Below, one piece after another: positions 4,109 to 15,376 of a stretch of 64,000 nucleotides of DNA. The translations under genes were made by a program, and so were the position numbers. The notes beneath the pieces are model-generated. The model was given only the letters and a program-made list of their open reading frames with translations, searched no databases and had not been told where the DNA came from. This stretch comes from Dongia deserti (lineage in GTDB: Bacteria > Pseudomonadota > Alphaproteobacteria > Dongiales > Dongiaceae), in contig NZ_QORW01000012.1 of assembly GCF_003574735.1 (NCBI RefSeq), forward strand, positions 124,001-188,000, given 5' to 3'. Positions within the stretch are counted from its first letter, which is position 1. Each line of letters opens with the position of its first letter.

Positions 4109-4150
4109 TTGAGCCTGTCAGAACCGTGCTGTATAGACTTGTATATACAA
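4109..4150 (+). promoter_or_regulatory. hutU promoter with HutC-type operator
   Basis: TTGAGC (4109-4114), a 17-base spacer and TATAGA (4132-4137) form a good sigma-70-type promoter for hutU. The perfect palindrome TTGTATATACAA (4139-4150) covers the expected transcription start. An imperfect copy TGTATAGACT (4130-4139) lies exactly 10 bases upstream of the core TGTATATACA (4140-4149), so two repressor dimers on one helix face are possible. Known GntR/HutC operators have this GT-N(4-6)-AC symmetry. The same motif recurs at 10314-10327 and 13587-13600. Confidence 0.7.
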
Positions 4151-4165
4151 CCTAGAGATTTTGTC

Positions 4166-5836
4166 ATGACCGGAACCCGCTTCAACGCCCGCACCATCCG
4201 CGCCCCGCGCGGCACCGCCCTCAATGCCAAGTCCTGGCTTACCGAGGCGCCGCTGCGCATGCTGATGAACAACCTCGACCCGGACGTGGCCGAGAACCCG
4301 AACGAATTGGTGGTTTATGGCGGCATCGGCCGCGCCGCCCGCAACTGGGAGTGCTTTGACCGCATTGTCGACAGCTTGAAGGCGCTGAGCGAAGACGAGA
4401 CCTTGCTCATCCAGTCGGGCAAGCCGGTCGGCGTCTTCAAGACTCACAAGGATGCACCGCGCGTCCTGCTCGCGAATTCGAACCTCGTGCCCCATTGGGC
4501 GACCTGGGAGCATTTCCGCGAACTCGATGCCAAGGGCCTGATGATGTACGGCCAGATGACCGCCGGTTCCTGGATCTATATCGGCAGCCAGGGCATCGTG
4601 CAGGGCACCTACGAGACTTTCGCCGAAGCGGGGCGCCAGCACTATGGCGGCGATCTTAAGGGGCGCTGGATCCTGACCGGCGGCCTCGGCGGCATGGGCG
4701 GCGCGCAGCCGCTCGCGGCCACGATGGCGGGCGCTTCGATGCTCGCGGTCGAGTGCGAGCCCTCGCGCATCGAGCGGCGGCTGGAAACACGCTATCTGGA
4801 CTTCAAGGCGTCTTCACTGGACGAAGCGCTCGCGATGCTCGAACGCGCGAAGAAGGACGGCAAGGCAATCTCCGTTGGCCTGCTCGGCAACGCAGCGGAG
4901 ATCTTCCCCGAGATCCTGAAGCGCGGCGTGCGACCCGACATGGTGACGGACCAGACTAGCGCGCATGATCCGCTGAACGGCTACCTACCGGCCGGCTGGT
5001 CACTCTCCCACGCCGCGGACATGCGGCAGCGCGATCCAGCAGCGGTGGTGAAGGCCGCGAAGGAATCCATGGCGGTACAGGTGCGCGCGATGCTCGGCTT
5101 CCACAAGCTGGGCATTCCCGTCTTCGACTACGGGAACAACATCCGCCAGATGGCGAAGGAGACCGGCGTCGAGAACGCATTCGACTTCCCCGGTTTCGTG
5201 CCAGCTTACATCCGCCCGCTGTTCTGCCGCGGGGTCGGCCCGTTCCGCTGGGCTGCGCTCTCCGGCGAGCCGGAGGACATCCACCGCACCGATGCCAAGG
5301 TGAAGGAGCTGATCCCGAACAACCCGCACCTGCACAACTGGCTCGACATGGCGCAGCAGCGCATCAAGTTCCAGGGCCTGCCGGCACGCATCTGCTGGGT
5401 CGGCCTGGGTGAGCGTGCGAAGCTCGGCCTCGCCTTCAACGAGATGGTAGCGAAGGGCGAGCTCAAAGCGCCGATCGTGATCGGCCGCGACCACCTGGAT
5501 TCAGGCTCGGTCGCCAGCCCGAACCGCGAGACCGAAGGCATGAAGGACGGTTCTGATGCTGTCTCCGACTGGCCGTTGCTCAACGCGCTGCTCAATTGCG
5601 CTTCGGGCGCAACCTGGGTCAGCCTGCATCACGGCGGCGGTGTCGGCATGGGCTTCTCGCAGCATTCCGGCATGGTGATCTGCTGCGACGGTACGGCGGA
5701 AGCTGCGCGCCGCATCGAGCGCGTGCTGACCAACGATCCTGGCACCGGCGTGATGCGCCATGCCGATGCGGGCTACGACATCGCGATCGATTGCGCGCGC
5801 GAGCAGGGTCTGAAGCTGCCGATGGTCAACGGCTGA
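4166..5836 (+). CDS. hutU: Urocanate hydratase
   Basis: Cytosolic NAD+-dependent enzyme that converts urocanate to 4-imidazolone-5-propionate, the second step of histidine degradation. It is 556 residues long, matching the family. Visible signatures are [19 protein letters not shown] (NAD-binding glycine-rich segment), [11 protein letters not shown], and [20 protein letters not shown] with the active-site-region cysteine. The ATG at 4166 (MTGTRFNAR) follows the operator by 15 bases; an in-frame start further upstream would lie inside the promoter. It heads the hutU-I-D-G operon. The hydratase looks canonical, so its substrate is probably ordinary urocanate rather than a thio-derivative, though this is an inference. 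Confidence 0.97.
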
Positions 5837-5837
5837 G

Positions 5838-7064
5838 ATGGGTTGGGACCTCCTCCTCACCGATTGCCGCGCCGCCACCATGGCGGAGGCGGAGGGCTAT
5901 GGCGTAATCGAGGATGCGGCCATTGCCATCGAAGGCGACCGCATCGTCTGGATCGGCAAGCGCGCCGATCTGCCGAAGCAAGGCGCGAAGGAGACGGTCT
6001 CGCTCGGCGGCCGGTGGGTCACGCCTGGCCTGATCGACTGCCACACGCATCTGGTGTTCGGCGGCGAACGCGCCAGCGAGTTTGAGCAGCGCCTCAAAGG
6101 TGCCAGCTACGAGGAAATCGCCAAGGGCGGTGGCGGCATTGTGTCGACCGTACGTGCGACCCGTGCGGCCAGCGAGGCCGAGCTCTTGGTAGCGGCCAAG
6201 GCGCGCCTGGACACCTTGATGACGGAAGGCCTGACGACGATCGAAATAAAGTCCGGTTACGGCCTGAACGTCGAGAACGAGCGCAAGCAGTTGCGCGTGG
6301 CACGTGCTCTGGGTCCCGCATGTGCGGTGACGGTGAAGACCACGTGCCTGGCGGCCCATGCCTTGCCGCCCGAGTTCGCCGGCAAGCCCGACGCCTACAT
6401 TGATCTGGTCTGTAACGAAATCCTGCCCGCGATTGCGGCCGATGATTTGGCCGACGCCGTGGATGCGTTCTCCGAGCGTATCGCGTTTACCGCCGAGCAG
6501 ACGGCACGCGTGTTCGACAAGGCAAAGTCCCTGGGCCTGCCGGTGAAGCTCCACGCGGACCAGCTCTCCGACATGGGCGGTGCTGCCCTCGCGGCGCGCT
6601 ATGGTGCCCTCTCCGCCGATCACATTGAATATAGTTCCGAGCAAGGTATCGCCGCGATGGGCGAGGCCGGAACCGTCGCCGTGGTGCTGCCCGGCGCATT
6701 CTTCTTTCTGCGAGAGAAACAGCTGCCGCCCCTCGATGCACTGCGCAAGCATGGCGTTCGCATCGCGATCTCGACGGACTGCAACCCTGGCAGTTCCCCC
6801 GCCCTCTCACTGCTGCTGATGATGAACATGGCCTGCACGCTGTTCCGCATGACGCCGGCAGAGACGTTGGCGGGTGTCACCAGGCACGCCGCCGCAGCGC
6901 TCGGTCTGGGCGCAACGCATGGACAGCTGCGCGCCGGCTATGTGGCCGATCTGGTCATCTGGAACATCGGCCAGCCCGCCGAGCTCAGCTATTGGCTTGG
7001 AGGCAATCCTTGCGCAGGTGTCATCCAAGCAGGCCGCTGGCGCAGCCGGAGCCTCGCGTCATGA
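5838..7064 (+). CDS. hutI: Imidazolonepropionase
   Basis: Amidohydrolase-superfamily enzyme that opens imidazolone-5-propionate to N-formimino-L-glutamate. It has 408 residues. Metal ligands are visible in [10 protein letters not shown] (around residues 66-75), in [11 protein letters not shown] and in the ISTDCNPGS segment near residue 318. The substrate-binding stretch [10 protein letters not shown] is present. It starts one base after the hutU stop and overlaps hutD by four bases, so the operon is translationally coupled. Confidence 0.97.
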
Positions 7065-7645
7065 CGGGTCGCGTGCTTCATCCGGACAACTATCAGCGCA
7101 TGCCATGGAAGAATGGCGGCGGCACCACGACCGAGATCTGGAAGGCCGCCTCGCCGGATGGCGAGATGTTGTGGCGGCTCAGCATCGCGGACGTCGCCAG
7201 CGATGGACCGTTCTCGGTGTTTCCCGGCATCGACCGCTGGATCATGGTGATCGAGGGCAAAGGCATGGAGCTCACCATCGACGGGCAAGTCCGTCAAATC
7301 GATGACCCATTCAAGCCTCTCGCCTTTTCCGGCGACGCCAAGGCCGATTGTCGCCTGGTCGAGGGGCCGATCCGTGATTTCAACCTGATGGTGGCGCGCA
7401 GCTATGGCAGTGGCGCGCTGCGAGTCTCGCACCTCGCGCCGGGCGCCTCTCAGCCCTTTGCGGAGAATGTTGCTGCGCTGCACGTGTTGCGCGGCCGGAT
7501 CGAGCTGGAATCCGGCACTATCCACGCGCTGTCGGCCAGCGACAGCTGGATCGCCGGTACATACGGCGGCGTGACAGCGCGGGCCTTCGCGCCGACCATC
7601 CTGGCCGTCGTCGTAATCGAGCCACATCAGCAGGCGGCACTATGA
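7061..7645 (+). CDS. hutD: HutD-family protein
   Basis: A 194-residue bicupin-type HutD protein. The hallmark N-terminus [15 protein letters not shown] is present from about residue 10. In Pseudomonas, HutD limits over-expression of hut genes, probably by binding a pathway intermediate; its biochemical activity is unsettled. The start at 7061 overlaps the hutI stop (ATGA), and the end overlaps the start of hutG in the same way, which supports this choice over an upstream in-frame ATG at 6992 inside hutI. Confidence 0.92.
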
Positions 7646-8433
7646 GGATCGAGCATCCCTACGAGTTCATTCAAGGCCGCACGCCGCTGCTGATCTCCAT
7701 GCCGCATCCGGGCCTGCTGCTCCCCGAAGAGGTCGCCGCGCTGTTGACGCCAGAAGCGCGCGCCCTGCCCGACGCAGATTGGCACATCCCTCAGCTCTAC
7801 GGCTTCGCGGCGCATATGGGCGCGAGTCTCCTGATGGCACGCTACTCGCGCTTCGCCATCGATCTCAATCGACCGGAAGACGACGCGCCACTCTATCAGA
7901 GCGCTACGACCGGCCTCTTCCCCGAAACCTTGTTCGATGGCACGTCGATCTTCCTGCATGGAAAGATGCGCAGCGACGAGATGAAAGCCGCCTGCAAGGA
8001 GCGAATCTGGCGCCCCTATCACGGCAAGCTGATGGCCGAGTTGAACCGCATCAAAGGCGAGTTCGGCCACGCCGTGCTGCTGGATGCGCATTCAATCCGC
8101 GGCGAGATTCCGCGGCTGTTCGACGGGCTGCTGCCCGACCTCAACATCGGCACCAATGACGGCAAGAGCTGCGCGCCCTCGCTGGCCAGCGCGGTCGCCA
8201 AGGTGTGCGACGCACCCGGCTACCGGCACGTCGTCAACGGCCGCTTCAAAGGCGGCCACATCACGCGCCATTACGGTCAACCGGACTACAACGTCCACGC
8301 CGTGCAGCTGGAGCTGGCGCAACGCACCTACATGAACGAGCAGCCGCCGTTCGACTACCGACCCGACCTGGCGGAGAAGGTGCAACCCATCCTGCAGCGC
8401 ATGGTGCAAACGATGATCGACTGGCGGCCCTAG
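7642..8433 (+). CDS. hutG: N-formylglutamate deformylase
   Basis: Zinc-type amidohydrolase of 263 residues that splits N-formyl-L-glutamate to glutamate and formate, the last step of the five-step hut route. Family features visible are ISMPHPG near the N-terminus, the DLNRPEDD segment, LLDAHSIRG in the middle, and RFKGGHITRHYGQP. Presence of both HutF and HutG identifies the five-enzyme route rather than the formiminoglutamase shortcut. It is the last gene of the hutU-I-D-G operon. No clear terminator follows it. Confidence 0.95.
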   Translation: MRIEHPYEFIQGRTPLLISMPHPGLLLPEEVAALLTPEARALPDADWHIPQLYGFAAHMGASLLMARYSRFAIDLNRPEDDAPLYQSATTGLFPETLFDGTSIFLHGKMRSDEMKAACKERIWRPYHGKLMAELNRIKGEFGHAVLLDAHSIRGEIPRLFDGLLPDLNIGTNDGKSCAPSLASAVAKVCDAPGYRHVVNGRFKGGHITRHYGQPDYNVHAVQLELAQRTYMNEQPPFDYRPDLAEKVQPILQRMVQTMIDWRP

Positions 8434-8494: not shown

Positions 8495-8878
8495 GTGCGT
8501 GACTGGGAGTCTTTCCAGCGAAGGCTGGACGCAGCTCATGCGCTGCTTGCGCAAAAGGGACTAATACGGGGAAAGCGCAATTACTTCCTTACTCGTGTTC
8601 TGTGGTCGGTAGGTATCACTGTACGGCCTCCGCTCTTCGCTAGTTTTGGCGCCAACGCCTTGCTCCATGGGGCTCTGTACGCTCTCAGCTGGGGCACTGG
8701 GATGTGGATCTTGTCATGGCAGGACGATGGGCAGTCAGTAACGGCAGCGGTGCTGTGGTCCGGCATTTCCGGTCCGCTGTTCGGCGCGGCCTTGGCTGCC
8801 TACTACCGCAGGCTTGCAAGAAAGCACGATCTGCCGGATTGGGATGAGTTGCCCGACCTTGTCGACGTCTTTGACTAG
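8495..8878 (+). CDS. Small membrane protein, DUF6404-like
   Basis: About 127 residues with a soluble N-terminal helix (RDWESFQRRLDAAHALLAQK), two hydrophobic segments (around residues 48-75 and 82-105), and an acidic tail ending LPDLVDVFD. The arrangement resembles DUF6404 proteins of unknown function. The start is uncertain: GTG at 8495 is taken here, and TTG at 8477 is also in frame; neither has a strong ribosome-binding site. Base composition is visibly more AT-rich than the flanking hut genes, which suggests a later insertion between hutG and hutF. Its stop overlaps the convergent hutF stop by four bases. No role in histidine use can be inferred. Confidence 0.65.
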   Translation: MRDWESFQRRLDAAHALLAQKGLIRGKRNYFLTRVLWSVGITVRPPLFASFGANALLHGALYALSWGTGMWILSWQDDGQSVTAAVLWSGISGPLFGAALAAYYRRLARKHDLPDWDELPDLVDVFD

Positions 8879-10242
8879 GCCGCCATCAGCGCCGACATCG
8901 CTGCGCTGAACGCGTCATGCGCCGCTGCCTCGCCGGCATGGTATCTGTCCGTCACCACCCACTTGCCGCCGACCATCACGTCCTTCACCCAGCTGTCGTT
9001 GCCGCCGAACAGCCAGCGGCCGAGGAGCTTGGCTGGCGCGACGTTGGCCAGCATCGGGTGGTCGCCGTCCAGCACAACGAAATCCGCGCGCCTTCCCGCC
9101 GCGATCGCGCCGATGTGCTTGCGCACGGCCTGAGCGCCGCCATGCAACGCCGCGCTGTAGAGCGTATCGGCCACTTCCGGCCGGTCGCCGGCGCTCAGGC
9201 GATTGCGGCGCTTGTGACTCAGGCGCTGACCGTATTCCAGCCAACGCAGTTCCTCGAGCGCGCTCACCGACACGTGCGAATCAGAGCCGACGCCGAACGC
9301 GCCGTTCGCCGCCAGGAACTCCTGCGCCGGGAAAATGCCGTCGCCGAGATTGGCTTCAGTCGTCGGGCAGAGGCCCACCACCGCCTCGCTGTGGCCCATC
9401 ATGTGCACTTCGTCGGGCGACACATGGGTCGCGTGGATCAGGCACCAGCGACCATCGATCTCGAACTTGTCATAGAGCCATTCGACCGGCCGCCGATTGG
9501 ACCAGGCGCGGCAATCCTCAACCTCCTTCATCTGCTCGGCGATGTGGATGTGGATCGGCCGCTCGCCAGGACAGGCCGCGAGTACCGCCTTCATCTCCGC
9601 CTCGGTCGCCGCGCGCAGCGAGTGGAAGCAGAGGCCCCAATCAGCGTCGATCCGCTTACAGGCACGATCGACGCCATCGATCAGTTTCAGATAGTGTTCG
9701 ACATCGTTCCTGAAGCGCAGCTGCTTGTCGGCCAGCGGCTGTCCGCCGAAACCGCCATGGGCGTAGAAGGTCGGCAGCAAAGTGAGCCCGATACCGGACG
9801 CTTCGGCCGCTGCCGCGATACGCTCCGCCATCTCCGCCAGATTGGCGTAGGGCACGCCACCCGGTTGATGATGCAGATAGTGGAACTCGGCCACCGACGT
9901 GTAGCCGCCTTTCAGCATCTCGATATAGAGATGCGTCGCGATCGCCTGCACCTGCTCCGGTGTCAGGCGGCCGACGAGGCGGTACATCAGCTCGCGCCAG
10001 GTCCAGAAGCTGTCCTGGGGATTGAGCGCCTCTTCAGCGAGGCCCGCCATCGCGCGCTGGAACGCATGCGAATGCAGGTTCGGCATGCCGGGCAGCAGCG
10101 GCCCGGCGATACGCTCATCGCCCGGTTGCGGTGCCGCTCCGCGCGACACGGCCTTGATCGCGCCGGCGGCGTCGATCTCGACCCGGACATCGGATTGCCA
10201 GCCATCGGCGAGCCAAGCGAGGGGCGCGTGGAGGACCTTCAT
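8875..10242 (-). CDS. hutF: N-formimino-L-glutamate deiminase
   Basis: Amidohydrolase-superfamily enzyme that deiminates formiminoglutamate to N-formylglutamate and ammonia, the step between HutI and HutG. It has 455 residues from the chosen start at 10242 (MKVLHAPLAWLADGW). Metal and catalytic motifs are visible: MPNLHSHAFQRAMAG near residue 55, HIHIAEQ, LIHATHV and VGSDSHVSVS. A longer in-frame extension to 10284 runs into the hutC control region and was rejected. It is transcribed divergently from hutC, so the palindrome at 10314-10327 may control both genes. Confidence 0.95.
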   Translation of the reverse strand: MKVLHAPLAWLADGWQSDVRVEIDAAGAIKAVSRGAAPQPGDERIAGPLLPGMPNLHSHAFQRAMAGLAEEALNPQDSFWTWRELMYRLVGRLTPEQVQAIATHLYIEMLKGGYTSVAEFHYLHHQPGGVPYANLAEMAERIAAAAEASGIGLTLLPTFYAHGGFGGQPLADKQLRFRNDVEHYLKLIDGVDRACKRIDADWGLCFHSLRAATEAEMKAVLAACPGERPIHIHIAEQMKEVEDCRAWSNRRPVEWLYDKFEIDGRWCLIHATHVSPDEVHMMGHSEAVVGLCPTTEANLGDGIFPAQEFLAANGAFGVGSDSHVSVSALEELRWLEYGQRLSHKRRNRLSAGDRPEVADTLYSAALHGGAQAVRKHIGAIAAGRRADFVVLDGDHPMLANVAPAKLLGRWLFGGNDSWVKDVMVGGKWVVTDRYHAGEAAAHDAFSAAMSALMAA

Positions 10243-10284
10243 GGGCGAATGGCTTCTTTGCAGTGTTGAATGGGGGCGGTACAC

Positions 10285-10327
10285 TTGAGGTTACAAATCA
10301 TGTCTGGCATAAGCCTGTCTAGACAGG
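10285..10327 (+). promoter_or_regulatory. hutC promoter and HutC-type operator
   Basis: TTGAGG (10285-10290), a 17-base spacer and CATAAG (10308-10313) form a plausible hutC promoter. The perfect 14-base palindrome CCTGTCTAGACAGG (10314-10327) lies directly after it, over the expected transcription start. Its core TGTCTAGACA has the same outer bases as the hutU operator core TGTATATACA. This predicts autoregulation of hutC and possible control of divergent hutF. Confidence 0.65.
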
Positions 10328-10343
10328 AACGGACCCGAATCTG

Positions 10344-11057
10344 TTGAATACCGAACTCCTGCCCCGATATTCGCGCGTCAAGCGTATGATTACCGACCGC
10401 ATTGATTCCGGCGAATGGCAGCCGCGTCACCGCATCCCCTCGGAATCGGAGCTGGTCCGCGACCTGGGCGTTAGCCGGATGACGATCAATCGCGCCCTGC
10501 GCGAGCTGACGCTCGATGGCCGGCTGATCCGGGTCCAGGGTGTCGGCACCTTCGTCGCCGAGCCAAAGCCGATCTCAGCGCTGTTCGAGGTACGCAACAT
10601 CGCCGATGAGATCACCGGGCGCGGCCATCGCCATACTTCACAGGTGCTCACTCTCCGCAAGGAGAAGGCGAGCACCGATATCGCGCAAGCGCTCGGGCTG
10701 AAGACAGGTGAAGCGGTTTTCCATTCCGTGCATGTACACTCTGAAGATGACATGCCGGTGCAGATCGAGGATCGTTACGTCGTTCCGGCGCTGGCGCCGG
10801 AGTACCTGGACCAGGACTTCAGCGCCCAGACTCCCTACGTCTACCTGATGGCAACAGCGCCGATCTCCGAAGCGGAGCATGTGATCGACGCCGTGCATGC
10901 GACATCAGCCGAACGCAAGCTACTGAAGATCGAGCCCAACGAGCCGTGCCTCTCCCTCACCCGCACCACCTGGTCGAATGGTCGGCACGTGAGCTACGTG
11001 CGCCTGCTTTATCCTGGCGGCCGCTACCGCCTGCGCGGGAAGTTCAAGGCGCTCTAA
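10344..11057 (+). CDS. hutC: Histidine utilization repressor HutC (GntR family, UTRA domain)
   Basis: A 237-residue repressor with an N-terminal winged helix (about residues 5-72, including PSESELVRDLGVSRMTINRA and GRLIRVQGVGTFVA) and a C-terminal UTRA effector domain. HutC proteins are released from DNA by urocanate. The start is TTG at 10344, 16 bases after the operator; no ATG is available in frame before the DNA-binding domain. Three matching palindromes in front of hutU, hutC and the hutH-like gene define its likely local regulon. The 3' end overlaps the convergent MarR-GNAT gene by 14 bases. Confidence 0.93.
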   Translation: MNTELLPRYSRVKRMITDRIDSGEWQPRHRIPSESELVRDLGVSRMTINRALRELTLDGRLIRVQGVGTFVAEPKPISALFEVRNIADEITGRGHRHTSQVLTLRKEKASTDIAQALGLKTGEAVFHSVHVHSEDDMPVQIEDRYVVPALAPEYLDQDFSAQTPYVYLMATAPISEAEHVIDAVHATSAERKLLKIEPNEPCLSLTRTTWSNGRHVSYVRLLYPGGRYRLRGKFKAL

Positions 11058-11976
11058 GGTCCAACTCCCACGTCTGCCCGACCAAGTCGTGGCCGAAGCT
11101 GTGGTGCCGTTCCTCTGCGACGAGTTTAAAGCCGCATTGCTTGTAGATATGGCCCGCTGTGACCAGGATGTCGTTGGTCCAGAGCGTGATCTTCTTGTAG
11201 CCGCGGTCGCGCGCGAAGCGGATGCACTCCTCGACCAAGCGCTTGCCGATACCGAGGCCGCGCGCCTTCGGATCGACCAGCAGCATGCGCAGCTTCGCGA
11301 TCTCGTCTGACTGCCGAACCAGGAACACACAGCCGACATTCTCGCTGTTCTTCTCGGCGATCCAGGCGCGTTCCTTCTTTGGATCGAACTCCTTCAGGAA
11401 CTTCGCGCCGATTTCAGCCGCCAGCGCCTCGAAGCTCTCATCGAAGCCGTATTCGCGCGCGTAGAGTTCGCCGTGCTTCTGCACCGCCCAGCCGATGTCG
11501 CCCGGCTGATGCGGCCGCAAGATATAGGACGCACCGCGCTCCGGCTCGGCGGAGAGCAACGTCTCAATCTCGCTCATCGCACTAACCAGGCGCTGCTGCT
11601 GCCGCGCGGTGAGGGTGCCCAGCATCTGCACCATGTCGTTGCGCGAGCGCGCGTTGAGCTCCGCAAAGCGCATCTGTCCGAGTTCGGTCAGGCTGAGCAG
11701 ATATTGCCGCGCATCCACGTCGGAAGCTTGGCGCTGCACGAGCCCACGTTCCTGGAAATTCTTCAGGACGCGGCTGAGATAGCCGGGATCGAGACCCAGA
11801 TATTTGGCCAGATCGGACGCCGTCGCGGCCTCGCGATGGGCCAGTTCGTAGATGATCCGCGCCTCGGTCAGCGAGAATTCGCTGCCGTTGTAGCCTTCAT
11901 GGAGGACGCCGACCTGGCGCGTGTAGAAACGCGAGAACCGGCGCACGGCTTCGACACACAGTGCCTGTTGCTCCAT
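11044..11976 (-). CDS. MarR-family regulator fused to GNAT acetyltransferase
   Basis: A 310-residue two-domain protein. Residues ~1-140 form a MarR winged helix (SLTEARIIYELAHREAATAS, LGLDPGYLSRVLKNFQERGL). Residues ~150-310 form a GNAT N-acetyltransferase with the acetyl-CoA loop DPKARGLGIGKRLVEE. Such fusions are common in alphaproteobacteria; the acetylated substrate is usually unknown. Its own upstream region holds an inverted repeat (12022-12040) suitable for autoregulation. The position between hutC and the hutH-like gene suggests that it may respond to, or acetylate, a compound of this pathway, but that is speculation. Confidence 0.9.
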   Translation of the reverse strand: MEQQALCVEAVRRFSRFYTRQVGVLHEGYNGSEFSLTEARIIYELAHREAATASDLAKYLGLDPGYLSRVLKNFQERGLVQRQASDVDARQYLLSLTELGQMRFAELNARSRNDMVQMLGTLTARQQQRLVSAMSEIETLLSAEPERGASYILRPHQPGDIGWAVQKHGELYAREYGFDESFEALAAEIGAKFLKEFDPKKERAWIAEKNSENVGCVFLVRQSDEIAKLRMLLVDPKARGLGIGKRLVEECIRFARDRGYKKITLWTNDILVTAGHIYKQCGFKLVAEERHHSFGHDLVGQTWELDLRAP

Positions 11977-11996: not shown

Positions 11997-12040
11997 ATAT
12001 AGTTGCCAGAGATAACAGATTTAGTTGCTTTTAGCAACTA
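11997..12040 (-). promoter_or_regulatory. Candidate MarR-type operator upstream of the MarR-GNAT gene
   Basis: TAGTTGC-N5-GCAACTA (12022-12040) is a perfect inverted repeat that overlaps the end of the hutH-like gene. A further half-site, TATAGTTGCC, lies at 11998-12007, closer to the gene start. On the minus strand, TTGCTA, a 17-base spacer and TATCTC form a possible promoter overlapping both. MarR proteins usually repress their own gene from such palindromes. Confidence 0.45.
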
Positions 12041-13573
12041 TCTGAGCAGCGCCTCGATCTCGCTTAGCCAGTCCGGCTCGAGCATCCTGGCCTCGATCAG
12101 CGCGATGTCCGGGCTCAGATACCGATCCTGCTCCATGGAGGGGATCTCGCCGCGTAGCCGGCGGTACGCCCCACCAGTCCCCTCGCCCAGCGCAAGCCTG
12201 GGCAGGAACTCGATCGCCTGCGTGGCGCACAGATATTCGATCGCCAGGATGCGCCTGGTGTTGTCGATCACCTTCAGCGCCTTGAGCGCCCCCGGAGTGC
12301 CCAGGCTGATGTGGTCCTCCTGCTGGGCGGAGGTGACGTAGTTGTCGGCAACCGCCGGCTGGCTGAGGCGCTTGTTCTCCGCCGCCAACGACGCCGCGAC
12401 ATACTGCACGATCATCAAGCCGGAATTGACGCCGGGCTGCTTCACGAGGAAGGCCGGCAGGCCGCTGGTCGCGGGATTGAGCAAGCGGTCGATGCGCCGC
12501 TCCGCGATCGAGCCAAGCTCCGCCACCGCCAGCGCCATCAGATCGACGGCCATCGCCACCGATTGGCCGTGCGGATGGGCATTGGAGATCACGCGATAGG
12601 AATCCGGCGTGCCGATCACCAGCGGGTTGTCGGTGGCCGACTTGAGTTCGACCACGATCTGCCGGCGCGCATGCTCCAGCTGGTCGCGCGTGGCGCCGTG
12701 CACCTGCGGGATTGAGCGGAGAGACAGCGCATCCTGCGTGCGATGGCCGCGAAAATGCGCCATCACCTCGCTGCCCTTGAGCAGGCCGCGCAGACGCCTA
12801 CCGACCGCGACCACGCCGGCGTGCGGCTTCAGCGCCAGCACCTCTTCGTCGAATGCGTCGGTCTGCCCCTTCAAGGCTTCGAAGGACAGAGCCGCAATGA
12901 TGTCGGCCCAATCGGCGAGACGCGCCGCTTCGACGACGCCCAGGCATGACAAGCCGGCGAGGCAGCGCGTGCCATTGACCAGGCACAGCCCATCTTTCGG
13001 CCCGACGTCGATGTGCTGCAATCCGGCGGCAACGATCGCTTCGCGCGCCGGCATGCGGCCGCCGCCGTACTCCACATCGCCGATGCCGAGCAGCGCCAGG
13101 CCGATATGCGCGCCGTGCACGATGTAGCCGACCGAGCCCTGGCTTGGCACGACCGGATTGATGCCGTGATTAAGGAAGGCGACAAGCTGGTCCACGACCG
13201 CCGGGCTCACGCCCGAATGGCCGTGGCACATATCATTGACCAACGCGACCATGATGGACCGCATCTCGGCCGGATGGAGCGGCTCACCGACGCCGCAGGC
13301 GTGGCTCAACAACGTGTTGCGCGAGATCTGCGCCAGTTCGTCCGGCGCGAGCTTCACATCGCTCAGCGCGCCGAGGCCGGTGGTGATGCCGTAGGCGCGC
13401 TCGCCGCTTGCCAGGATGCGCTCGACGATGGCGCGTCCATTCTCCAGCTTGGCGTGTGCGGCGGGGCCGAGCGTGAGGCGCGCGCGGCCGTGGGAGATCG
13501 CGGCGATCTCCTCGCAAGTCAGCGGTGCTGCATCGCGTAGAATGAGCGGCTGCCCAAGCCCTCGAGCCGACAT
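12038..13573 (-). CDS. hutH: HutH-like aromatic amino acid lyase lacking the MIO-forming triad
   Basis: 511 residues, homologous along its length to histidine ammonia-lyase. Conserved family residues include Tyr61 (AYGITTGLG), His91 (LLSHACGVG), Asn200 (VNGTR), Gln280, Arg286 and Glu419 (QQEDHIS). However, after GSVG (146-149), where normal enzymes have Ala-Ser-Gly, which cyclises to the MIO electrophile, this protein reads YIVHGAHIG and is about three residues shorter. The essential tyrosine of QDPYSLR is Leu283 (QDALSLR), and the SGGNFH loop reads ISNAHPH. Such changes are known in ergothionase, a MIO-free lyase that eliminates trimethylamine. It may therefore act on hercynine, ergothioneine or another betaine, with urocanate passing to HutU. 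An ordinary histidine ammonia-lyase function is doubtful, so the symbol denotes homology only. A HutC-type palindrome precedes the gene. Confidence 0.85.
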   Translation of the reverse strand: MSARGLGQPLILRDAAPLTCEEIAAISHGRARLTLGPAAHAKLENGRAIVERILASGERAYGITTGLGALSDVKLAPDELAQISRNTLLSHACGVGEPLHPAEMRSIMVALVNDMCHGHSGVSPAVVDQLVAFLNHGINPVVPSQGSVGYIVHGAHIGLALLGIGDVEYGGGRMPAREAIVAAGLQHIDVGPKDGLCLVNGTRCLAGLSCLGVVEAARLADWADIIAALSFEALKGQTDAFDEEVLALKPHAGVVAVGRRLRGLLKGSEVMAHFRGHRTQDALSLRSIPQVHGATRDQLEHARRQIVVELKSATDNPLVIGTPDSYRVISNAHPHGQSVAMAVDLMALAVAELGSIAERRIDRLLNPATSGLPAFLVKQPGVNSGLMIVQYVAASLAAENKRLSQPAVADNYVTSAQQEDHISLGTPGALKALKVIDNTRRILAIEYLCATQAIEFLPRLALGEGTGGAYRRLRGEIPSMEQDRYLSPDIALIEARMLEPDWLSEIEALLR

Positions 13574-13586
13574 TGATGCCTTCCTA

Positions 13587-13600
13587 CTTGTATAGACAGG
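13587..13600 (-). promoter_or_regulatory. HutC-type operator upstream of the hutH-like gene
   Basis: CTTGTATAGACAGG, with core TGTATAGACA, is a hybrid of the hutU palindrome (TGTATATACA) and the hutC palindrome (TGTCTAGACA). It lies 13-27 bases upstream of the lyase start codon. A TTGACG hexamer further upstream could be the -35 element, but I see no convincing -10. Confidence 0.6.
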
Positions 13601-13696: not shown

Positions 13697-15376
13697 TCAG
13701 AACAGGCCCTCGACATCGCCCTTGGCGTTCAGCTTGATGTTATTGGCCGATGGAACGCGCGGCAGGCCGGGCATGGTCATGATCTCGCCGCAGATGACGA
13801 CGATGAACTCGGCGCCGGCCGACAACCGCACCTCCCGGACCGGCACCACGTGGTTGCTGGGCGCGCCCTTCAGGTTCGGATCGGTCGAGAAGCTGTACTG
13901 GGTCTTCGCCATGCAGACCGGGTAATTGCCGAAGCCCATCTTCTCCAGGTCGTGGAAGCGGTCGCGCACCACCTTGTCGGCGATGATGCCCTGGGCGCCA
14001 TAAAGGCTCTGGGCGATCGTGCGCACCTTGTCCCACAGTGGCATGTTGTCCGGGTAGAGATAGGTGAAATTGCTCTTCTGCTCGGTCATGCGCACGACAG
14101 TGTGGGCGAGTTTTTCGATGCCCGCCGAGCCATAGGCCCAGTGGTTGCACTCGATCGCCTCGACGCCGAGCTCGGCGCAGGTCTGCCGGACCGTATCGAG
14201 CTCGGCATCGGTATCGGCCACGAACCGATTGATCGCCACCACCGGCGGCACGCCGAACTTCTTCACGTTCTCGATATGGCGCGCCAGGTTGGCGGCACCC
14301 TTCTTCAGCGCCTCGATGTTCTCCTTGCCGAGATCTTCCTTGGCGACGCCGCCGTGCATCTTCAACGCTCGGATCGTGCCGACGATGACCGCGGCCGCGG
14401 GCTTCAGGCCGGCCTTGCGGCACTTGATGTCGAAGAACTTCTCGGCACCCAGGTCGGCGCCGAAGCCGGCCTCCGTCACCACGTAGTCCGCCATCTTCAG
14501 CGCGGTCGTGGTCGCGATCACCGAGTTGCAGCCATGGGCGATGTTGGCGAACGGACCGCCATGGATGAAGGCGGGATTGTTCTCCAGCGTCTGTACCAGG
14601 TTCGGCGCAATGGCGTCCTTCAGCAGGACTGTCATCGGGCCTTCGGCCTTCAGATCGCGCGCGTAGATCGGCTTCTTCTCGCGCGTGTAGCCCACAATGA
14701 TGTTGCCGAGGCGCTGCGTCAGATCCTTCAGATCGCGCGCCAGGCAGAAGATCGCCATCACTTCGGACGCGACGGTGATGTCGAAGCCGTCCTCGCGCGG
14801 GAAGCCGTTTGGCGTGCCGCCCAGCGAGTTCACGATCGAGCGCAGCGCGCGATCGTTCATGTCCATCACGCGGCGCCATGCGACACGGCGCGTGTCGAAG
14901 GCGAGATCGTTGCCCCAGTAGATGTGGTTGTCGATGAGCGCGGCGAGCAGATTGTGCGCCGTCGAGATGGCGTGGAAATCGCCGGTGAAATGCAGGTTGA
15001 TGTCTTCCATCGGCACGACCTGCGCGTAGCCGCCGCCGGCAGCACCGCCCTTCACGCCGAAGCAGGGACCAAGGCTCGGCTCACGCAGGCAGATGATCGC
15101 CTTCTTGCCGATGCGGTTGAGGCCGTCACCGAGGCCGACGGTCGTGGTGGTCTTGCCTTCGCCAGCCGGCGTCGGGCTGATCGCGGTGACGAGGATCAGC
15201 TTGCCGTCCGGCTTGTCCTTCAAGGATTCAACGAACTTCATCGAGATCTTGGCCTTGGTATGGCCGTAGGGCAGCAGATGCTCGTCCGGAATGCCGAGCT
15301 TGTTCGCGACCTCGCGGATCGGCCTCATGGTCGCGTCGCGCGCGATTTCGATATCGCTGCCCACTTTCTTGTTCAT
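13697..15376 (-). CDS. fhs: Formate-tetrahydrofolate ligase
   Basis: Cytosolic ATP-dependent enzyme (559 residues, usual length) that joins formate to tetrahydrofolate, giving 10-formyl-THF for one-carbon metabolism. The P-loop [20 protein letters not shown] lies near residues 67-86, and [20 protein letters not shown] follows. The ATG at 15376 is preceded by GGAG at a suitable distance. It has its own terminator and promoter region, so it is not in the hut operon, but its place next to hut genes fits capture of the formate released by HutG. This functional link is inferred. Confidence 0.97.

Follow-up and report, generated by a model that had tools for sequence, protein, structure and literature searches.

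A MIO-free HutH paralogue in the hut cluster of Dongia deserti, a candidate hercynine trimethylamine-lyase

Introduction

In the lyases HAL and PAL, the MIO group makes ammonia a leaving group. MIO-free enzymes of the HAL fold would be expected to need a better one, by analogy with ergothionase, the ergothioneine trimethylamine-lyase of Treponema denticola (6s7j/6s7q). We analyzed a MIO-free HutH paralogue encoded in a 64,000-nucleotide stretch of the Dongia deserti genome, referred to here as the window. The window protein shares its fold and its imidazole- and carboxylate-binding residues with canonical HutH (P. putida 1b8f and the genome's own copy on contig 24), but unlike HutH it has no MIO triad, no Tyr280, and no Phe329. 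It resembles ergothionase in its MIO-free HAL fold and in having Leu for Tyr280, and both proteins keep a His for the imidazole and an Arg for the carboxylate. Ergothionase differs in its loop, SIGEGDITTLSH, which is shorter by one residue rather than three, in having Ser for Asn200, in belonging to a separate tree group, and in acting at the level of thiourocanate. Its thiourocanate hydratase partner is lacking in the window, with none reaching the cut-off in the genome.

A lyase on pAt of Agrobacterium tumefaciens Ach5 is like the window protein in its larger clade (100/99) and its YLTH loop, and its neighbor is a ProU-type ABC importer. Its partner is an S-methyl-thiourocanate hydratase, whereas the window has HutU, and a second loop reads HSQAHAVGAA in place of ISNAHPHGQS. 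In 2022, Yan et al. reportedly described an ergothioneine sulfonate pathway of Agrobacterium radiobacter in vitro.

In P. aeruginosa, gene order points to PA5093 as a HAL-like (HutH1) gene, which we take it to be. From gene order in other strains, of P. fluorescens and P. pseudonitroreducens, we infer that in the hut operons of Pseudomonas the place of "HutH1" is taken by the MIO-free clade. These Pseudomonas proteins are like the window protein in clade (98/97 and 97/96 in two trees), GSVGY[IL][VT]H motif, Leu283, and hut cluster; the window gene has the hut cluster and HutC-type operator expected of a Pseudomonas-type HutH1. Pseudomonas HutH1 genes have an ABC importer directly upstream and often a canonical HutH gene directly downstream, whereas the window gene adjoins neither.

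Results

The window protein lacks MIO and keeps the HutH pocket

The gene encodes 511 amino acids and lies on the minus strand, at the position given in a preliminary description of the window (Table 1). That description reported the loss of MIO, two further substitutions, and five retained residues, all of which hold on comparison. After G146-S147-V148-G149 the protein continues Y150-I151-V152-H153, so that relative to canonical GSVGASGDLAPLAH it is without the ASG triad and is three residues shorter. The QDPYSLR motif has become QDALSLR, with L283 for the catalytic Tyr (Tyr280), and the SGGNFH loop has become SNAHPH (ISNAHPH with the preceding residue). The five retained residues are Y61, H91, N200, R286, and E419, which include those that bind imidazole and carboxylate; all five are invariant in the 88 relatives with the GY[IL][VT]H loop.

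Against the curated HutH equivalog TIGR01225, the protein scores 529.9 bits, under the cut-off of 539.15, and it passes the broader subfamily model NF006871 (535.9 versus 524). It scores higher as HutH (348 bits) than as ergothionase (221), and its AlphaFold model (pLDDT 87.7, pTM 0.90, weak at loop 410-422) resembles P. putida HutH (TM 0.88) more closely than ergothionase (0.84). The window protein has the HAL fold without MIO.

The dN/dS of the gene is 0.066 and 0.094 for two congeneric orthologues (0.073 and 0.080 for HutU), and the gene is under purifying selection rather than decaying. Random decay would not account for a loop and residue pattern that is invariant in relatives together with low dN/dS. 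A sequencing error or pseudogene is ruled out by the low dN/dS and by the identical loop in independent genomes.

The cluster contains the other hut genes, and canonical HutH lies elsewhere

The window holds HutU, HutI, HutG, HutF, HutC, and HutD (Table 1), in keeping with the "otherwise complete hut cluster" of the preliminary description, with the qualification that a canonical HutH is encoded on another contig. The window HutU falls under the cut-offs for thiourocanate hydratase (720 versus 930) and S-methyl-thiourocanate hydratase (728 versus 880). The formate--tetrahydrofolate ligase beside the MIO-free gene could consume HutG-derived formate. The MarR-GNAT fusion gene that adjoins the MIO-free gene is conserved in two other loci (L036 and L037).

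Table 1. Features of the window around the MIO-free gene
Feature	Position	Strand	Remarks
HutC-type site, one mismatch	4138..4151		upstream of likely hutU start
HutU urocanate hydratase	4166..5836	+	TIGR01228 998 bits; likely start ATG 4166
HutI imidazolonepropionase	5838..7064	+	
HutD family protein	7061..7645	+	homology to annotated Sinorhizobium HutD; start inferred
HutG N-formylglutamate deformylase	7642..8433	+	
HutF formimidoylglutamate deiminase	8875..10284	-	
HutC-type palindrome CCTGTCTAGACAGG	10314..10327		between hutF and hutC
HutC repressor	10344..11057	+	
MarR-GNAT fusion protein	11044..11976	-	downstream of MIO-free gene
MIO-free HutH paralogue	12038..13573	-	511 aa
HutC-type palindrome CTTGTATAGACAGG	13587..13600		13 bp upstream of MIO-free gene ATG
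formate--tetrahydrofolate ligase	13697..15376	-	other side of MIO-free gene

The aromatic amino acid lyase family is represented in the D. deserti genome (6.1 Mb, 51 contigs) by four genes, or five matches if two pieces of one open frame are counted separately. A genome-wide search for a second, MIO-bearing HutH, as proposed earlier, located one on contig 24 with ASG, QDPYSLR, and SGGNFH. Contig 51 encodes a second MIO-free protein, which scores better as ergothionase (283 bits) than as HutH (233) and has Arg at HutH's imidazole-binding His position; judged from its sequence, its substrate is probably not an imidazole. Contig 50 encodes a distant relative. All 23 genomes examined have one canonical MIO HutH motif match each, so the MIO-free protein is no replacement for HutH.

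We also noted several neighboring genes. The contig 51 gene (L003 1354-2928, minus strand; L137 8742-10316, minus strand) adjoins an FAD amino acid oxidase gene and an ORF named from its sequence as ornithine-cyclodeaminase-like. Upstream of the contig 24 HutH gene, and overlapping into it on the opposite strand, is an ORF (L138 7933-9624, minus strand) with an MtgC/MtbC-like B12-binding corrinoid domain that scores under those cut-offs and whose start may be overextended. Genome G012 (contig 64:31805-33361) carries a third gene of the HAL family; its product shares 33% identity with the window protein, and a perfect HutC-type site lies immediately before the gene.

The window protein belongs to a separate MIO-free clade

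Two peptide patterns, run against GTDB genomes, gave 426 candidates, 386 of which were relatives, and the best 80 of the 386 loci were retained, 73 of them titled Pseudomonas. The 165 distinct HAL-family proteins collected comprise 88 with GY[IL][VT]H, 70 with MIO, and 7 others. Position 283 separates the first two sets completely, being Leu in 88/88 and Tyr in 70/70. We also searched the 385 genomes of the window's class with a fixed-letter DNA pattern for the loop, which overlooks more divergent members, the Klebsiella protein described below among them; nine matched, one falsely, leaving eight that carry the loop. The match in genome G236 is not a HAL gene.

Trees were built from 51 chosen proteins and again from 41, the second without twelve rows: six near-identical Pseudomonas proteins, three outgroup proteins, and L135, L119, and L019, which were long or uncertain. 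The window group joins a Pseudomonas/Erwinia/Rhodoferax group with support of 98/97 (51 proteins) and 97/96 (41 proteins). The next to join is a Rhizobium-Burkholderia group (93/99), with Agrobacterium in the second tree (100/99). MIO-bearing proteins form their own clade without the window protein (99/99 in the first tree, 100/100 in the second). Ergothionase, the contig 51 protein, and a few relatives form another, again without the window protein (100/99 in both).

The phylogeny called for by the preliminary description thus places the window protein outside both reference groups, and on these trees it is neither a canonical HutH nor a member of the ergothionase group but part of another MIO-free clade. 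That it is ergothionase proper is ruled out by its position outside the well-supported T. denticola group. Sister grouping of the window's larger clade with the ergothionase group, as from a single shared loss of MIO, is possible (62/60), and the loops of the two MIO-free lineages differ; the T. denticola row was flagged by the program as a long branch. Uniting the window group alone with the ergothionase group was rejected (p 2.7e-7).

Relatives are commonly preceded by importers and accompanied by hut genes

Many Pseudomonas loci run HutF, HutC, HutD, HutU, transporters, the MIO-free protein, canonical HutH, HutI, and HutG, with some variation. Among the best 80 of the 386 loci, 67 have HutU within 10 kb, 69 have at least one hut gene within that distance, and 53 have canonical HutH. 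In 74 of these 80, the lyase gene is directly preceded, on the same strand and at no more than 500 bp, by the gene of an ABC-importer ATPase, 72 of the ProV/ChoV type and 2 of the polar amino acid type; of the six without one, five come from the window's family and one is cut at a contig end. Of 19 genomes examined, 18 have HutU, and in the 19th a contig end interrupts hutU. At nine Pseudomonas loci (L061, L078, L082, L086, L102, L103, L108, L113, and L115), the stretch contains the importer and the lyase but no hut genes.

Since the 80 loci are mostly from one genus, independent cases of an importer weigh more. ProU-type importers are found in Pseudomonas, in Agrobacterium, and in three genomes of another family in the window's class (G049, G177, and G274), where HutU adjoins the importer-lyase module. 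Importers of the polar amino acid type are found in Erwinia, Rhodoferax, a Burkholderiales bin, Sinorhizobium, Rhizobium, and Burkholderia. At one Pseudomonas locus without hut genes, the ATPase exceeds the proV cut-off (371 versus 327) and the permease matches the choline permease model under its cut-off (293 versus 363). At one P. fluorescens locus, the binding protein comes closest to those for glycine betaine/proline and for choline, and in Sinorhizobium to octopine/nopaline-binding proteins.

In the window's family, the window included, no importer lies next to the MIO-free gene. Matches to the Pseudomonas-type binding protein are weak, at best 108 bits among 17 genomes of the family and 54 bits (31%) in the D. 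deserti genome. The preliminary description's "betaine-utilisation island" thus receives only half support, given the absent importer and the weak binding-protein matches.

Other neighbors were observed as well. A SolA-like N-methyl amino acid oxidase gene directly follows the MIO-free lyase gene in Sinorhizobium (L117 11510-12640) and Rhizobium (L120). In a sister genus (L038, L040, L141, and L142), the MIO-free gene adjoins a PhyH-type dioxygenase gene, with a LysR regulator gene too in three of the four.

On pAt of Ach5, a member of the MIO-free clade (23-row clade, 100/99) follows a betaine-type ABC importer. The operon also encodes an S-methyl-thiourocanate hydratase (975.8 versus a cut-off of 880), the hydantoin-5-propionate amidohydrolase ErtD (782.8 versus 600), ErtE (576 versus 520), and a BisC-family Mo reductase that scores 968 bits, under its cut-off of 1018. 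The first step of such a pathway is expected to be trimethylamine elimination from a betaine, and the MIO-free lyase is the only evident candidate for it among the annotated genes of the stretch.

A Klebsiella pneumoniae plasmid (CP110544.1; L193/L196) carries hutG, hutI, a permease gene, hutU, four ABC genes, a MIO-free HAL gene, hutD, hutC, and hutF, and no canonical hutH is annotated in this stretch. The encoded protein has another MIO-free loop, GSVGYLIATAH, keeps the Leu, and has Gly for Asn200. Klebsiella accounts for 196 of the 707 plasmid records that matched an Erwinia query at E<=1e-60, with the loop examined in one, CP110544.1.

HutC-type sites precede the MIO-free gene across the window's family

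The pattern CYTGTNTANACARG, with at most one mismatch, occurs three times in the window, against 0.03 expected. We take CTTGTATGTACAAG to be the HutC operator of P. putida, and it was also found before hutU in L046. Because the pattern was composed after two of the window sites had been seen, only the searches of the whole genome and of relatives are independent tests. The whole D. deserti genome has four perfect sites, versus one for a reversed control: two in the window cluster, one before canonical HutH, and one before a desaturase-like gene. The 17 genomes of the family have 32, versus 4 for the reversed control.

Of the nine family genomes carrying the MIO-free gene, eight have a perfect site immediately before it and one has a site with a single mismatch; such sites occur in both the window's genus and a sister genus. 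As G002, G004, and G008 have only two perfect sites each, at the MIO-free gene and at canonical HutH, the MIO-free gene of this family looks like part of the HutC regulon by its sites, even far from hut genes. HutC control of the window gene, proposed in the preliminary description, is therefore probable, with a predicted site 13 bp upstream and sites in the same place in relatives.

Outside the window's family the picture is different. Sites within -300 to +120 were found for 14 of 94 MIO-free ORFs, all from the window's family and with some genes counted twice, and for 14 of 71 canonical HutH ORFs. Among 23 loci inspected, there was no site just before the module in the hut-less Pseudomonas loci, Erwinia, Sinorhizobium, Rhizobium, or G049, G177, and G274; the Burkholderia locus has one with a single mismatch. 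The Agrobacterium and Klebsiella stretches contain no HutC-type site.

The fourth perfect site of the D. deserti genome (contig 33:27259; L160 about 9260) lies just before the desaturase-like gene, which was named from its sequence and matched no NCBIfam model; an MttB-family methyltransferase gene is nearby. The site and both genes are conserved in L168 and L169. From its site, this locus is possibly an unrecognized member of the HutC regulon.

Discussion

The loss of MIO, the conserved pocket, the clade, the gene context, and the operator-like site are features of the sequences themselves. We propose, with a probability of roughly 0.57, that the window protein eliminates trimethylamine from hercynine to give urocanate for HutU-I-F-G. 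It would be a MIO-independent histidine-betaine lyase, in which hercynine (N,N,N-trimethylhistidine) is bound by the HutH-type residues at its imidazole and carboxylate, and trimethylamine leaves without the electrophilic MIO. Urocanate would be released and converted by HutU-I-F-G to glutamate and formate. The gene would be induced together with the hut genes via HutC, and the enzyme would work alongside the canonical HutH of contig 24, not in its place. The reaction, its substrate, and HutC binding are what we infer from these features.

Hercynine is the simplest fit because the pocket suits an imidazole and a carboxylate, HutU and the operator point to urocanate, and the betaine-type importers of relatives suggest a quaternary amine. 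It also fits best because the clade has a member in the ergothioneine-type operon of Ach5 while the window has a canonical HutU; by analogy, HutU in place of the Ach5-type hydratase would mean hercynine in place of an ergothioneine-type betaine. We further count in its favor the loss of MIO with Leu283 and an invariant pocket in 88/88 proteins; ergothionase (6s7j) also has Leu there. Purifying selection, the HutC-type sites, the coexisting canonical HutH motif, and HutU in 18 of 19 genomes speak for it as well.

Several observations count against hercynine. In the window's family, no importer lies beside the gene and the binding-protein matches are weak. Sinorhizobium has an octopine/nopaline-type binding protein and a SolA-like oxidase, the Klebsiella relative is without Asn200, and loop 410-422 is poorly modeled by AlphaFold. 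Hercynine is a fungal and actinobacterial metabolite, and as no egtD was found in the D. deserti genome, it must come from outside the cell, which we also count against it. According to PMC9732360, hercynine is bound weakly by EgtU, an importer of ergothioneine that is broadly of this type, and the ABC transporter of SBW25 is reported to participate in histidine uptake. PMC12772324 names PA5093 hutG, describes poor growth of the hutG mutant on histidine as well as on urocanate, and reports another HutC site. This conflicts with the hercynine proposal if PA5093 is the MIO-free gene; otherwise, the tag assignment differs.

We weighed four other explanations. The protein could be a dead or regulatory subunit in mixed tetramers with canonical HutH, which would accord with the coexistence of the canonical motif in 23/23 genomes, its presence within 10 kb in 53 of the best 80 loci, and a report that HutH1 is dispensable on histidine. 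We consider this unlikely, as the substrate-binding residues are invariant in 88/88 proteins, the gene tracks importers and not strictly HutH (nine Pseudomonas loci have no hut genes in the stretch), and in D. deserti the two genes are on different contigs.

Conversion of ergothioneine, S-methyl-ergothioneine, or ergothioneine sulfonate to a thio-urocanate derivative is likewise doubtful, even with a clade member in the Ach5 operon of that kind. The best thiourocanate hydratase match in the D. deserti genome (720 versus 930 bits) is HutU itself, and the urocanases of the window, the Klebsiella plasmid, and Sinorhizobium L117 all score best as HutU. HutC is described in PMC8871633 as a repressor when urocanate is absent. 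Judged on these sequences, ergothioneine is less likely than hercynine. The preliminary description had offered both, along with a MIO-free lyase outside canonical HutH that feeds the hut pathway; with a canonical HutH located elsewhere, that core is supported, whereas its ergothioneine/thiourocanate branch is not, with no thiourocanate hydratase at cut-off in the genome and the protein outside the T. denticola group.

Another N-modified histidine, whether N-methyl, N,N-dimethyl, or an opine-like conjugate, is a similarly improbable substrate for the window protein. The adjoining SolA-like oxidase in Sinorhizobium and Rhizobium and the octopine/nopaline-type binding protein of Sinorhizobium suggest other N-substituted substrates. 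However, secondary and tertiary amines would be poor leaving groups without MIO, and the ProU-type importers of Pseudomonas and Agrobacterium suit a quaternary amine. Least probable of the four is a slow MIO-independent histidine ammonia-lyase: the pocket residues, the hut cluster location, the passing NF006871 score (535.9 versus 524), and the poor growth on histidine reported for a PAO1 "PA5093" mutant (on urocanate also) would agree with it, but canonical HutH coexists in 23/23 genomes and both Tyr280 and MIO are gone in 88/88 proteins.

If hercynine is the substrate, the predicted route is from hercynine to urocanate and trimethylamine. In the open-licence literature searched, we found no description of a hercynine-lyase or betaine-lyase enzyme of this kind, and prior publication is possible. 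More tentatively, and at slightly less than even odds, the clade may represent a widespread second entrance to histidine catabolism, in which a betaine-type importer and a MIO-free HutH1, encoded in the hut operons of Pseudomonas and on replicons of rhizobia, convert hercynine from the environment to urocanate and trimethylamine, with a related MIO-free type in the Klebsiella plasmid hut cluster. The hutH annotation is probably wrong for many genes, whose products would not be histidine ammonia-lyases. The hercynine proposal would give the second HutH protein of Pseudomonas, so far unexplained, a possible role, and a second entrance, if real, would explain the purpose of HutH1 and HutXWV.
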